From a virus, in the IMG/VR virus record IMGVR_UViG_3300006921_000165, positions 1-23,413 of that record: 23,413 nucleotides of DNA. One strand, given 5' to 3'. The position numbers and the translations under genes are program-made. The stretch's first letter is position 1. Each line of letters opens with the position of its first letter. A model generated the notes under the pieces. The model did no database searches. It saw nothing but the letters and a program-made list of their open reading frames with translations, and was not told the DNA's origin. Shown one piece after another: positions 4,710 through 12,502 of this stretch.

Positions 4710-5111
4710 CTAACCCCCATCCGTTAATTCGCGTATTTTGCGGTCAAGTTCGTCTTCAGATAACTCAGAAGTATCTAAGTTCTTTGTTGTCTGATCTATT
4801 CTTTGCAGCTTTGGCTGCTCATATTCTGCTAAGGCTATAGCTAAACGCTCAATAGTATCTTGATCTTCAAGCTGCATAGCTTTAACTAGCTGCACCTTCA
4901 GTATCTCTACAGCTGTGGGCATCTCTGTAATTATCTCATCTCTGATTTTTCTAAATTCAGACGCAGATAATTTCATAGACTCCCTAAGTTGCCTGTTCTG
5001 TCTTCGTGCTTCTGCACCTTTCGCCTGCATCTCACGAGCTTTCTCAGAGTCCATATAGGGCTTGAGCTGCTTGAGAGAATTAGGGTGCTTGCCACAGTTC
5101 TCGTAACCCAT
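4710..5111 (-). CDS. Possible small terminase subunit
   Basis: This is a 133-aa protein. I take the ATG at 5111, because GGAGG lies six bases ahead on the minus strand; a TTG at 5123 is upstream but overlaps that site. The N-terminal SLKQLKPYMDSEKAREMQAK and the basic helical stretch after it recall the DNA-binding head of small terminase subunits. The acidic C-terminus (SELSEDELDRKIRELTDGG) also resembles such proteins. If correct, it recognises viral DNA for packaging. It is alone on the minus strand within a + strand region, the strand used by the late genes. An alternative is a small transcription regulator. The family call is tentative. Confidence 0.4.
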   Translation of the reverse strand: MGYENCGKHPNSLKQLKPYMDSEKAREMQAKGAEARRQNRQLRESMKLSASEFRKIRDEIITEMPTAVEILKVQLVKAMQLEDQDTIERLAIALAEYEQPKLQRIDQTTKNLDTSELSEDELDRKIRELTDGG

Positions 5112-5156
5112 GTAAACCTCCAAGTTAATTGTCTTTTAGGAGACATTTAAAATTTT

Positions 5157-5186: not shown

Positions 5187-5615
5187 ATGACTGACTACTT
5201 AAAGATTATAAAAGAATGTCAAGAAAGATTAGGTATTAAAGACGACTCAGTTCCTAATTACTTATCAGGTACTAAGTCAAAAACGCCCGAGAGCGTTTTC
5301 TATAACAATAAAAGAAAGGATAAACCAATGGCTAAAGTAACTGCCGTGCAGATTCTCAAAGAAGCTGCTGAACTTAAAGAAAGAAAGAGTAAAGATTATC
5401 AAGGTGGCATGTGGTCAGAAGAAGATTACTTTCCGTTCGGAGATAAATCTTATGTTCATATGATACATACAAAGTATTTACGTATGAGAAATATAGTTGA
5501 AGGCGATCAAGAAACAAACTTCGAAGCCTTAGAAGATACACTTGTAGACATGGCAGTATACTGTGCAATGTTTGCAGCACATATAGAAAACGTTAAAATG
5601 GAAAAGGATAACTAA
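5187..5615 (+). CDS. DUF1599-like (nucleotide modification associated) protein
   Basis: This ORF encodes 142 aa. Residues 48-138 contain the pattern KSKDY, then HTKYLRMRNIV, then EALEDTLVDMAVYC, which matches my memory of the DUF1599 / nucleotide-modification-associated domain 1 family found in phage nucleotide operons. Its biochemical role is not established. Two starts are possible. The ATG at 5187 has GAAGGGA ahead. The ATG at 5328 has AAAGGA seven bases ahead and gives a 95-aa protein made only of the domain. Hairpin copy 4 lies in frame between them, so both forms could be made. The next gene starts on the last base of the stop (TAATG). The operon continues with a TS-fold enzyme and a pyrophosphohydrolase. 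Confidence 0.65.
   Translation: MTDYLKIIKECQERLGIKDDSVPNYLSGTKSKTPESVFYNNKRKDKPMAKVTAVQILKEAAELKERKSKDYQGGMWSEEDYFPFGDKSYVHMIHTKYLRMRNIVEGDQETNFEALEDTLVDMAVYCAMFAAHIENVKMEKDN
5280..5299 (+). promoter_or_regulatory. Hairpin element, copy 4 of 4 (inside a reading frame)
   Basis: The stem is AAAACGC (5280-5286) paired with GCGTTTT (5293-5299), around the loop CCGAGA. The stem is the same as in copy 3, with a different loop. It is followed at once by CTATAAC and, 29 bases after the stem, by an ATG (5328) with a good ribosome site. Read as protein it encodes KTPESVF in the long form of the DUF1599-like gene. Confidence 0.5.
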
Positions 5616-6331
5616 TGCTTGTAGTTAAAGACATCAGGAAATTATTCCGAGATGAATATAAACTAAACAAGACAAGAAACGGTACAGTAGAACTGCAAGG
5701 CGTATCATTTAAAGCAGATGAAGATTACATATATGGTACACCAAATAAAGAATATATACAAGCTGAGATCGCATGGTACTTATCACAAGATAGAAAAGTC
5801 GATAGACTGTTCGAGTTGTATGGTAAACCTGTAAAAATATGGAACGATGTCAAGGACATAAACAACGAAGTTAACTCTAATTACGGCTGGTGTATATTCA
5901 GTGGAGAACGTCATAAACAGTTTCACAAAGCATATAGAGCTTTACTAAAAGATCCATACACTAGACAAAGTGTTATGATATATACTACACCTGAGATGCA
6001 TGATATAGCAGGTAAAGACTTCACATGTACTAACGCACAACAGTTCTTTATTAAAGATAACAAGCTGCATAGTGTAGTACAAATGAGATCACAAGATGCT
6101 GTATTCGGCTATAATAACGACATAGCATGGTTTAAGCACGTACTGTTCTCAATGCATTTAAAGTTAACAAGTAAGTGTATACTAGAATATCCTGAGCTAT
6201 CAACGCCTATGAAAAACTTAAAGATAGGTGATGTGACTATGCAGATAGGTTCACTACATGTATATGAAAGACACTTTAATTATATAGAAAAAGATAACAA
6301 ACAATTAGCATTAGATTTAGGAGAATTATAA
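5615..6331 (+). CDS. Thymidylate synthase-fold dCMP hydroxymethylase-like enzyme
   Basis: This 238-aa enzyme has the thymidylate synthase fold. The motifs align with E. coli ThyA in order: phosphate-binding Arg21 (RNGT), catalytic Glu51 (AEIAWYL), catalytic Cys138 (FTCTN), Arg158-Ser159 and Asp161 (MRSQD), and His215/Tyr217 (LHVYERH). The key position equal to Asn177 of ThyA is Asp169 (GYNNDIA). In T4 dCMP hydroxymethylase this Asn is also Asp, which selects cytosine over uracil nucleotides. The likely reaction is therefore dCMP plus methylene-tetrahydrofolate to 5-hydroxymethyl-dCMP, or a dCMP methylase. The length is close to T4 gp42 (246 aa). It overlaps both neighbours by one base. An ordinary thymidylate synthase is the alternative, but less likely. 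Confidence 0.75.
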   Translation: MLVVKDIRKLFRDEYKLNKTRNGTVELQGVSFKADEDYIYGTPNKEYIQAEIAWYLSQDRKVDRLFELYGKPVKIWNDVKDINNEVNSNYGWCIFSGERHKQFHKAYRALLKDPYTRQSVMIYTTPEMHDIAGKDFTCTNAQQFFIKDNKLHSVVQMRSQDAVFGYNNDIAWFKHVLFSMHLKLTSKCILEYPELSTPMKNLKIGDVTMQIGSLHVYERHFNYIEKDNKQLALDLGEL

Positions 6332-6783
6332 TGCCTTACGTAATATACCCTGAAGACCAATGGCATAATACCATAGACTCGTTTCACGATAAGTTTGGTG
6401 TGCATGACTGGATTAACAATAAACTAACTGATAAAGACTATGATACTCTTAAAAAGTTCATGGACTTTAGATTAAACTTTTTGAAAGAAGAATTAAATGA
6501 AACAGAAAAAGCAATTACAGAAGGCGATGCTAAAGAAATCGTTGATGGTCTTATTGATCTATGTGTTATCGCCATTGGAACGTTGGATGCATTCGGCTGC
6601 GACGCCCATGGTGCTTGGTCTACCGTTATGGAAGCGAACATGGAGAAAGAAGTTGGTGTTAAACCTTCGAGGCCCAATCCTCTCGGTCTACCTGATCTTA
6701 TTAAACCTGAAGGTTGGAACGGACCTGACCATACGCACACTACAGGAATACTAGAAGAAGTTTATAGAAAGGAATCAACATGA
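6331..6783 (+). CDS. MazG-like / all-alpha NTP pyrophosphohydrolase
   Basis: This 150-aa protein has the metal-binding signature of the all-alpha NTP pyrophosphatase superfamily: Glu53, Glu54 and Glu57 (FLKEELNE), followed by Glu69, Asp72 and Asp76 (EIVDGLID). Such enzymes cut dNTPs to dNMP and pyrophosphate. Placed right after a dCMP hydroxymethylase-like gene, it is a candidate for removing unmodified dCTP, as T4 gp56 does, but its substrate cannot be read from the sequence. The C-terminal part (residues 105-150), rich in Pro and Gly, is typical of phage members. The stop overlaps the next start (ATGA). Confidence 0.75.
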   Translation: MPYVIYPEDQWHNTIDSFHDKFGVHDWINNKLTDKDYDTLKKFMDFRLNFLKEELNETEKAITEGDAKEIVDGLIDLCVIAIGTLDAFGCDAHGAWSTVMEANMEKEVGVKPSRPNPLGLPDLIKPEGWNGPDHTHTTGILEEVYRKEST

Positions 6784-7316
6784 CAAGACATGCAATGGAC
6801 CAAGTTAAAGGCATTGGTAACTGGATAACAATACCTGTACTACAGGAATTTATAGATCAACGTGATGCTCGTGCTGAGAAGTATAATCCTCGTGGTAGAA
6901 CACTAGATAAATTAAAGATGGATATTGAATGTGAAATCTTTGAATGGTGGATGATACATGAAGGTAAATGGGATGACTCAGATCGATGGGAAATCGATGG
7001 TGTATGTCCTGTATATGGTAATGTAGATGTAAAGTTTGTAAAGAAATGGTACAACTTAACATGTCAGAAACTTATATACTTACTAAGACAACGTGATATT
7101 ACAGAACATTTCTTATTCTGTGAATGGAAATATAGACCTAGTCATAATGGTGAAGATCGTTTGTTAGTTGACGGTGACACAGTTCAAGTCAGCATCTTAG
7201 GGGCCTTAGAGTACTGGGATTTAATAAACAACTTGAAAACTTCTAAATACAATGGATTTTATGCTGATGTCAAAACTTTACTTAAAATGGATGAGGCTGA
7301 ATCAAATGACGATTGA
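6780..7316 (+). CDS. Protein of unknown function in nucleotide operon
   Basis: This 178-aa protein is rich in tryptophan and tyrosine. The first 90 residues include RDARAEKYNPRGRTLDKLK and a Trp-rich stretch (EIFEWWMIHEGKWDD). The C-terminal half looks helical. It overlaps the pyrophosphohydrolase gene by four bases and, at its end, the zinc-ribbon gene by 11 bases. It should be co-expressed with them and may serve nucleotide metabolism. No catalytic motif was recognised. Confidence 0.7.
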   Translation: MTRHAMDQVKGIGNWITIPVLQEFIDQRDARAEKYNPRGRTLDKLKMDIECEIFEWWMIHEGKWDDSDRWEIDGVCPVYGNVDVKFVKKWYNLTCQKLIYLLRQRDITEHFLFCEWKYRPSHNGEDRLLVDGDTVQVSILGALEYWDLINNLKTSKYNGFYADVKTLLKMDEAESNDD

Positions 7317-10428: not shown

Positions 10429-12053
10429 CTAGATACATACAAACAGAGTGTCCTAAATGTGATTCGTCAGATGCATTTACTATCTACGATGATGGTGCAC
10501 ACTGTTTCTCATGCAATTATTCTACAAAGAAAGTGATGAATAACATGGAACAATTAGAAGAAATTACTACAGAATTTACAGCTAAGCAAGATATCATGCA
10601 AGAAATTAGTGAGCTTAACAGCTTTGCTATTACAAGTCGTGGTATATCTAAGCAAGTTGTAGACTATTTCGGTATAAAAATGGCAGTAAATCCTGATGGA
10701 TCAGGTGGATCTCATTTCTATCCGTATACTAGAGATAATAAAGTAGTAGCTTACAAAGAACGTAGGCTACCTAAAGATTTCCTTACACACGGAGATTACA
10801 AAAAGATAGAGTTGTTCGGTCAAAACGCTGCAACAAGTGGTAAAATAGTTGTTGTTACTGAAGGAGAACTCGATGCTTGCGCAGTTGCTCAGGCATTTAT
10901 GGATAAATATAACAAAGTATTTCCAGTTGTTTCAATACCAAGCGCTACAGGTACTAAACATTTACTTGATAATCGCTCTTGGCTGAGACGATTTGAATCA
11001 GTGGTGCTACTATTTGACTCAGATGATGCAGGAAAAGAAGCAGTTGAGCGTGCAGCTAAGATAATAGGTGCAGGTAAAGTTAAAGTAGGAGACTTACAAG
11101 GCTGTAAAGATCCATGCGAATTACTTATGAAGAACGGTTCGCATAGTATACTACAAGCAATATGGAATGCACAGACGTGGTCTCCATCAGGTATAGTAGT
11201 AGGTGAACCTATATGGCGAGAGTTTAAGAACAGACAAACAACTATATCTGTTCCGTATCCTTCTTGTTTGCAAGGATTAAACGATAAACTACAAGGAATC
11301 AGACACGGTGAAATTACTTTATTTACTTCCGGTACTGGCAGCGGTAAGTCTACTGTCATTAAAGAGATCGCTCTTGATTTACTTGATAAGACTGATAGTA
11401 AAGTCGGACTTATATCTCTCGAAGAAAGTATTGGCGACACTGCAGAAAAGTTTATTGCCATGTCTCTTGAGCGATCTACAATGGATATCAAGAATATTAA
11501 GGATGAGCAATTACGAGAAGGATTTGATGACGTATTCAAAGACGAACGACTTGTTCTTCTTGACCATCAAGGATCTTGTTCAGATGCTTCGCTCTTGGAT
11601 AAGATCGAGTATATGGCTCTCATGGGTTGTAAGTATCTTGTACTTGACCATATTACCATTGCAGTATCTGAAGGTTCTGAAGGACGTAGTGGTAACGAAG
11701 CGATAGATAAATTGATGAGTGATCTACTTAAGATCGTAAAGAAACATAACATATGGCTAGGTCTTATATCACACTTAAGAAAAGCTCAAGGTGATAAACA
11801 ATCATTCGAAGAAGGTAACCTAGCTTCTATCGATGACATCAAAGGCAGTGGCTCTATTAAACAAATATCATTTGATATTATTGCATTTGCTAGAAACTTA
11901 ATAGCAGAAGATGATATTAAAAGAAATACAATAGAGTTTACAGTACTTAAGTCTAGATTCACAGGTAATACAGGTAAAGCTGGTCGTGCTACATACGATG
12001 TAAATACAGGTAGACTTAGCTCGATACCAGATGAGAGGTTCGTAGCTGTATAA
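10419..12053 (+). CDS. T7 gp4-like primase-helicase
   Basis: This 544-aa bifunctional enzyme of the replication fork starts with a zinc-binding primase domain (Cys11, Cys14, Cys29, Cys32). The TOPRIM domain has TEGELDA (Glu148) and FDSDDAG (Asp200, Asp202). The hexameric helicase domain has Walker A SGTGSGKST (304-312), Walker B YLVLD (Asp410), His452 and a terminal RFTG (513-516). It is close to T7 gp4 (566 aa) in length and order. Unlike T7 gp4, the C-terminus (DERFVAV) lacks the acidic tail that contacts the polymerase. The start used has AAAGG ahead; an ATG two codons later is also possible. Confidence 0.93.
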   Translation: MEMTRYIQTECPKCDSSDAFTIYDDGAHCFSCNYSTKKVMNNMEQLEEITTEFTAKQDIMQEISELNSFAITSRGISKQVVDYFGIKMAVNPDGSGGSHFYPYTRDNKVVAYKERRLPKDFLTHGDYKKIELFGQNAATSGKIVVVTEGELDACAVAQAFMDKYNKVFPVVSIPSATGTKHLLDNRSWLRRFESVVLLFDSDDAGKEAVERAAKIIGAGKVKVGDLQGCKDPCELLMKNGSHSILQAIWNAQTWSPSGIVVGEPIWREFKNRQTTISVPYPSCLQGLNDKLQGIRHGEITLFTSGTGSGKSTVIKEIALDLLDKTDSKVGLISLEESIGDTAEKFIAMSLERSTMDIKNIKDEQLREGFDDVFKDERLVLLDHQGSCSDASLLDKIEYMALMGCKYLVLDHITIAVSEGSEGRSGNEAIDKLMSDLLKIVKKHNIWLGLISHLRKAQGDKQSFEEGNLASIDDIKGSGSIKQISFDIIAFARNLIAEDDIKRNTIEFTVLKSRFTGNTGKAGRATYDVNTGRLSSIPDERFVAV

Positions 12054-12502
12054 TGCCTGATATAAATAAACTAGATAAATTATTCATGGATATTACTAAT
12101 AGAATAGCTAATATGTCTCATGATAATGGTACAAAAGTAGGTGCTATCATTGTTAAAGATGGTAACATACTTAGTATGGGTTATAATGGCATGCCTTCGG
12201 GCATGTCTAATAACTGTAAAGATGAACATGGTGTAACCAATAAAGAGGTTATACACGCAGAGGCTAATGCCATATGCAAACTAGCGCAGAGTACAAGCTC
12301 GTCTAAAGGTGCAACACTATACTGCACGTACTCACCTTGTATTGAATGTGCTAAACTAATACTACAAAGTGGTATTGAGAGAGTAATATATGCTAATGAT
12401 TATCGTGATGTTAATGGCAGACTATTACTAGACGATCAAATTAAAATAGGTAAGGTACAATATGCAGGATCAACTTCACTATATACAGGAGAAGATACGT
12501 AA
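12053..12502 (+). CDS. dCMP deaminase
   Basis: This 149-aa cytidine-deaminase-fold enzyme has the zinc site HAE (His68, Glu70) and PCIEC (Cys96, Cys99). It converts dCMP to dUMP, feeding dTTP synthesis. The substrate would be shared with the dCMP hydroxymethylase-like enzyme at 5615, so the two compete for dCMP. T4 also carries both enzymes. The start overlaps the primase stop by one base. The last 41 bases overlap the RNA polymerase gene. Confidence 0.88.
   Translation: MPDINKLDKLFMDITNRIANMSHDNGTKVGAIIVKDGNILSMGYNGMPSGMSNNCKDEHGVTNKEVIHAEANAICKLAQSTSSSKGATLYCTYSPCIECAKLILQSGIERVIYANDYRDVNGRLLLDDQIKIGKVQYAGSTSLYTGEDT

Follow-up and report, generated by a model that had tools for sequence, protein, structure and literature searches.

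The three-gene cassette at positions 5187-6783 of the DNA analyzed here is likely to be a T4-like phage cassette for cytosine hydroxymethylation, through which 5-hydroxymethylcytosine (5hmC) would stand in place of cytosine. This DNA, the 23,413-base IMG/VR virus record IMGVR_UViG_3300006921_000165 (positions 1 to 23,413; hereafter, the window), carries at that site the three open reading frames from which the original prediction had read a possible cytosine-modification operon. All lie on the + strand, are joined by stop/start overlaps, and encode proteins of 142, 238, and 150 amino acids: a DUF1599 (nucleotide modification associated domain 1) protein (5187..5615), a predicted dCMP hydroxymethylase (5615..6331), and a MazG-like/PRA-PH all-alpha NTP pyrophosphohydrolase (6331..6783). 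At the sequence level, the operon reading is supported. A predicted dCMP deaminase (12053..12502, + strand; 149 aa), absent from the original prediction, completes the T4-like set.

The window derives from an uncultured phage of marine origin, whose relative Roseobacter phage CRP-7 is its nearest isolate by RNA polymerase (34%); megablast of the phage collection returned no near-identical isolate. CRP-7, a marine podovirus, has a 58.1-kb genome and an RNA polymerase with only a distant relationship to those of the Autographivirinae (PMC6918029). By blastn, two relatives that are nearly identical to each other, G003 (40 kb) and G004 (44 kb), overlap at each end and together span ~58.6 kb, a sum calculated from the overlaps rather than by assembly. 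The label "T7-like" is a loose one: the relatives make up a CRP-7-like group whose genome is ~58.6 kb and whose RNA polymerase is a distant relation of that of T7. A Pfam scan placed, 3' of the cassette, a family A DNA polymerase, a 5'-3' exonuclease, a RusA-like protein, a primase-helicase, the dCMP deaminase, and a single-subunit RNA polymerase. Directly after the cassette lies a conserved 178-aa protein (6780..7316, + strand) with no assigned function and no Pfam or PHROG matches, which is found 3' of the MazG gene in all relatives that have the region, with inserts intervening in some; its membership in the modification pathway is uncertain. Just 5' of the cassette, on the opposite strand (4710-5123, -), a conserved 137-aa open reading frame resembles terminase small subunits at sub-threshold scores only.

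By every test available, the product of 5615-6331 is predicted to be a dCMP hydroxymethylase and not a thymidylate synthase. The protein matched the Pfam family Thymidylat_synt (PF00303) over its cut-off (E 5.6e-14), and a search of solved structures returned T4 dCMP hydroxymethylase (PDB 1b49) first (155 bits, E 1.9e-44), whereas the best thymidylate synthase reached 35 bits; NCBIfam thymidylate synthase equivalogs scored 24-45 bits against cut-offs of 108-405. Residues were compared in a 29-sequence alignment including T4, ThyA, and SPO1-type enzymes. Asp169, previously proposed to occupy the position of ThyA Asn177, did align there, and also with T4 Asp179; the catalytic Cys and Glu of T4 (C148 and E60) aligned to C138 and E51. 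More broadly, E51, W76, V79, S88, Y90, and D135 of the window protein correspond to T4 E60, W82, V85, S94, Y96, and D145, and C138, D161, D169, H215, Y217, and R219 to T4 C148, D171, D179, H216, Y218, and R220. The hydroxymethylase signature pairs Ser/Thr-x-Tyr with an Asp (or Glu) located three positions ahead of the catalytic Cys; this Asp activates the attacking water, and a separate Asp selects cytosine (PMC6400193). The window enzyme has the signature (Asp135, Ser88-x-Tyr90, and Cys138), with Asp169 for cytosine. At the positions of T4 residues 145 and 179, ThyA has Leu and Asn, SPO1-type dUMP hydroxymethylases have Asp and Asn, and T4 and the window clade have Asp and Asp. Where ThyA carries Asn177 and a hydrophobic residue at 143, the window enzyme thus has Asp169 and Asp135, and where the SPO1 and SH-Ab enzymes have Asn, it again has Asp169. 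The Asp at the T4 179 position was present in 12/12 IMG/VR relatives, and this Asp combined with the hydroxymethylase signature in 13/13 clade sequences.

Phylogeny, which had been proposed as a check, gave the same answer: in a maximum-likelihood tree, the window enzyme fell in an 18-row clade with T4 gp42 (support 99/99) that also takes in enzymes of Aeromonas, Acinetobacter, and Microbacterium phages, while thymidylate synthases and dUMP hydroxymethylases lay outside; the long-branch warning attached to this tree concerns branches mostly outside the gp42 clade. The bit scores, the signature, and the tree placement agree with the original view of a dCMP rather than a dUMP enzyme. With T4 gp42 (PDB 1b49, 1b5d, 6a9b; ~38% identity), the window protein shares the fold family, the catalytic Cys, the specificity Asp, the water-activating Asp, and the Ser-x-Tyr. 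It differs in having Gln118 for Arg124, Ala50 for Arg59, and Asn167 for Arg177. The Gln at the position of the phosphate-binding T4 Arg124, shared with the SPO1 dUMP hydroxymethylase, counts against the dCMP hydroxymethylase reading. The two also differ in gene context, which is gp43 and beta-gt for gp42 but DUF1599 and MazG for the window enzyme.

The cassette is conserved. Scanning viral contigs revealed 15 homologous loci, and about ten related marine contigs keep the three-gene cassette. The order persists in relatives whose proteins are as little as 44-57% identical, and dN/dS values of 0.21-0.25, calculated against three relatives, show purifying selection on the TS-fold gene; the arrangement is thus not due to chance. 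In two groups, with hydroxymethylase identities of ~72% (L002-L006) and ~57% (L007-L011 and L013), the DUF1599, hydroxymethylase, and MazG genes lie beside the same replication genes, joined by the deaminase where the contig extends to it; in L013, the hydroxymethylase gene is shifted upstream. A further group (L014-L016) has DUF1599, hydroxymethylase, and deaminase in another genome context. Some contigs carry additional genes nearby. In G003, a tryptophan halogenase gene (L004:11130-12677 = G003:19320-20867) is inserted immediately 3' of the MazG gene, with a gene for a 2OG-Fe(II) oxygenase on the 5' side (G003:16499-17056); the near-identical G004 has neither at these sites. In the second group of relatives, a SAM-dependent methyltransferase-like protein is encoded between the MazG gene and that of the 178-aa protein (L007:11814-12653; also G009), and G006 too carries a SAM methyltransferase near its cassette. 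At L014:3213-5410, translations judged by eye suggest an NAD-dependent epimerase, and possibly a protein resembling glycosyltransferases, beside the more distant hydroxymethylase homolog and deaminase.

The flanking protein described as DUF1599-like fell just under the Pfam cut-off (PF07659, E 3.1e-04, 21.5 bits vs 25), and the assignment is backed by PHROG matches of ~1e-13 to 1e-15, including PHROG 18404 (E 3.8e-15), where the match covers the DUF1599 portion of a fused MazG-DUF1599 protein. Each sampled phage context has DUF1599 immediately upstream of a TS-family gene of the Asp179 type. These contexts (the window clade and L014-L016, together with four Pamexvirus/Bradleyvirinae phages and Pelagibacter phage Kolga) were picked from hit lists and do not constitute a census. 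In Pamexvirus-type phages, the MazG and DUF1599 domains form one protein, and the window's two flanking proteins matched this fusion separately (33-39% identity for DUF1599, 38-48% for MazG). The conserved order and gene fusions support the view that both proteins functionally belong with the hydroxymethylase. Given this association, DUF1599 is probably a dedicated accessory of the modification pathway, acting on nucleotides. Profile comparison of DUF1599 with MazG gave a probability of 4%, leaving homology between them unsupported. RS21-C6/DCTPP1 dCTP pyrophosphatases occupied the top Foldseek rows for DUF1599, but with E values above 1, too high to assign a fold; the AlphaFold model is weak (mean pLDDT 60.5) and drew only generic helical matches with VIA-align.

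The third protein belongs firmly, as far as sequence can assign it, to the all-alpha NTP pyrophosphohydrolase (MazG/PRA-PH) superfamily. It scored over the Pfam cut-off for PRA-PH (PF01503, E 6.4e-08), its best solved match by phmmer was DR2231 (E 1.7e-05), and it keeps the E-rich ExxE...ExxD motif, with E53, E54, E57, E69, and D72 invariant in nine sequences. Pyrophosphohydrolases also topped the structural list for its model (pLDDT 70); Z values up to 7.8, the highest obtained with VIA-align, do not rise above the background expected between helical models with no relationship, and the assignment to this family therefore rests on sequence. The superfamily named in the original prediction therefore stands, while a specific likeness to T4 dCTPase gained no support: comparison with T4 gp56 gave an hhalign probability of 0.4% (with a shallow profile), and gp56 itself matches dUTPase_2, and PRA-PH weakly, whereas the window protein is of the MazG/PRA-PH type. 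It could plausibly, though not demonstrably, be a dCTPase or a dCTP/dUTP pyrophosphatase. Because its nearest solved relative, DR2231, was crystallized with dUMP/dUMPNPP and because no specific gp56 kinship was found, the odds of a preference for dCTP are roughly even. We give a little under an even chance to the alternative that this protein acts on another nucleotide (e.g., dUTP or an alarmone), in which case cytosine would be only partly replaced. Marine phages often encode MazG-like proteins, which are diverse; that of CRP-7 is encoded in a genome without a TS gene (no PF00303 matches), and neither fold nor sequence discriminates the substrate; on the other side stand the MazG-DUF1599 fusion beside an Asp-type TS and the conserved adjacency of the genes. 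The window's MazG gene shares 95% identity with those of L002-L004 and ~75-78% with those of L005 and L006, while its flanking genes are equidistant from both sets, an unevenness that suggests recombination at the cassette.

In the 5hmC pathway that we favor, (i) the MazG-like pyrophosphohydrolase would clear dCTP to dCMP; (ii) the hydroxymethylase is strongly predicted to convert dCMP, methylene-THF, and H2O to 5-hydroxymethyl-dCMP and THF; (iii) the predicted deaminase may route remaining dCMP to dUMP for the host thymidylate synthase; (iv) host kinases would raise hmdCMP to hmdCTP; and (v) the phage polymerase would insert hmC instead of C. The deaminase matched PF00383 (E 8.5e-25), PHROG 174, dCMP deaminase (E 1.3e-50), and the solved deoxycytidylate deaminase 4p9c (E 5.4e-31) and T4 enzyme 1vq2 (E 3.5e-20), and it is present in all contigs of relatives that are of sufficient length. 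The T4 precursor pathway (gp42, gp56, cd, and gp1) likewise unites a hydroxymethylase, an all-alpha NTP pyrophosphohydrolase, and a dCMP deaminase in one genome; the window differs in the type of pyrophosphohydrolase and in having neither a gp1-type kinase nor a glucosyltransferase, as the original prediction had noted. Our searches extended that observation to near-complete relatives: no dNMP kinase was detected in the window or its relatives with PF21448 and phrog_139, for which the T4 control scored strongly, and a Pfam scan of 45 G003/G004 proteins found no kinase or glycosyltransferase. T4 requires gp1, annotated as active on HMdCMP and not on dCMP, for hmdCMP, and the absence of a kinase here is the main gap in the pathway; phosphorylation of hmdCMP must consequently fall to host kinases.

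No glycosyltransferase, carbamoyltransferase, or other decorating enzyme was recognized in the window, and with no glycosyltransferase the DNA product is probably plain 5hmC. It is unlikely that 5hm-dCMP is later deaminated or decorated, leaving 5hmdU or a hypermodified cytosine, rather than 5hmC, as the virion base. The encoded dCMP deaminase would suit such a route, as would the extra enzymes near the cassette in relatives (the halogenase and oxygenase of G003, the methyltransferases of G006 and G009, and the glycosyltransferase-like protein and epimerase of L014), but the extra genes are absent from the window and differ among relatives. Ratios of observed to expected palindromes, calculated for the window, its relatives, CRP-7, Kolga, and T4, did not separate modified from unmodified genomes. 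Unglucosylated 5hmC DNA, as in T4gt, resists ~82% of Type II enzymes and is cut by Mcr-type enzymes (PMC7653180). By analogy with T4gt, the DNA of the window phage is expected to be protected from most Type II enzymes and open to Mcr-type modification-dependent ones.

Two relatives of the cassette bear on a different outcome, in which the central enzyme would be a dCMP methyltransferase (an Asp-type TS working by hydride transfer) that yields 5-methylcytosine DNA, as in Xp12. In Pelagibacter phage Kolga EXVC016S, gp36-gp35-gp34 have the same order of DUF1599, TS family, and MazG (DUF1599 69% and MazG 40% identical); no dCMP deaminase was found when looked for in Kolga. The middle enzyme (L017:11232-12017, annotated "putative thymidylate synthase") has Asp179, but TS-like Leu145, Trp85, and His147, and lacks the water-activating Asp; from these residues, we predict a dCMP methylase in a cultured SAR11 phage. 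For the Pamexvirus type, we used Pamexvirus/Bosavirus AXL1 in place of its relative Xp12, in which all cytosines are 5mC (PMC9206674; PMC7653180). As in the window, MazG and DUF1599 of AXL1 (gp64-gp61; L068:2219-4879) adjoin an Asp179-type TS-family enzyme and a dCMP deaminase; in contrast, its MazG and DUF1599 are fused, and its TS enzyme, like others of the Pamexvirus type, carries Asn145 and is accompanied by a DHFR. AXL1 DNA resists 26/31 restriction enzymes by a modification mechanism that its authors called unknown (PMC9206674). The Asp residue of gp63 makes it a candidate dCMP methylase, and gp64-gp61 a candidate pathway for the restriction resistance of AXL1. Although these neighbors lend the methyltransferase reading some weight, it is improbable for the window enzyme, which has Asp135 (T4 D145), Ser88-x-Tyr90, and Val79 as in the T4 enzyme, has no DHFR gene annotated nearby, and clusters with T4 gp42 rather than with TS-like proteins; moreover, T4 D145N yields no 5hm-dCMP (PMC6400193). 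A thymidylate-supply module without base modification, composed of a divergent TS, the deaminase, and a dUTPase-like MazG, would fit the encoded deaminase, the dUMP ligands of DR2231, and the usual annotation of such marine phage genes as thymidylate synthase, but is highly improbable given Asp169 rather than Asn, the hydroxymethylase signature throughout the clade, and NCBIfam scores far under cut-off.

Cytosine hydroxymethylation by the window cassette also finds parallels elsewhere. In MetaGPA, Asp177-type TS, PRA-PH, and dCMP deaminase co-occur and are enriched on contigs with experimentally modified cytosine, the contigs studied further carrying a carbamoyltransferase (PMC8670742), which was not seen in the window. 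Microbacterium phage HerculesXL, likewise a small non-T4 phage with a dCMP hydroxymethylase-type enzyme and a MazG-like protein, differs in having its own thymidylate kinase and glycosyltransferase and in having no annotated DUF1599. Roseobacter phage RDJL Phi 1 gp18 (L069:1950-2996, annotated "Cof hydrolase") apparently joins a MazG domain and a dNMP-kinase-like domain in one protein and, in contrast to the missing kinase of the window, is encoded directly 5' of an Asp179-type TS, a dCMP deaminase, and a DHFR. Alteromonas phage R8W was rejected as a T7-like precedent, its thymidylate synthase being reported as ThyX, which has a different fold.

The enzyme family is already known; the phage group and the minimal gene set are the new part, and we found no earlier report in the literature of such a pathway in the CRP-7-like group. 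We suggest, tentatively, that DUF1599-TS-MazG is a mobile, exchangeable cytosine-modification cassette, found in phages of marine and other origin, whose center is swapped between a hydroxymethylase (5hmC, in the window clade, which has no phage dNMP kinase or glycosyltransferase) and a methylase (5mC, in Kolga and the Pamexvirus type), with DUF1599 and MazG as shared pool-handling partners; if Kolga does encode a dCMP methylase, the base made through this cassette would be 5mC there and 5hmC in the window phage. If the hydroxymethylation reading is true, T4-style cytosine replacement extends to small marine podoviruses of the CRP-7-like group, which would accomplish it with a smaller set of dedicated genes than T4. 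Such phages would then withstand most Type II enzymes and be susceptible to modification-dependent ones. DUF1599, an uncharacterized domain, would gain a concrete partner in the Asp-type TS-family enzymes, and many phage genes annotated as thymidylate synthase would gain an alternative reading.
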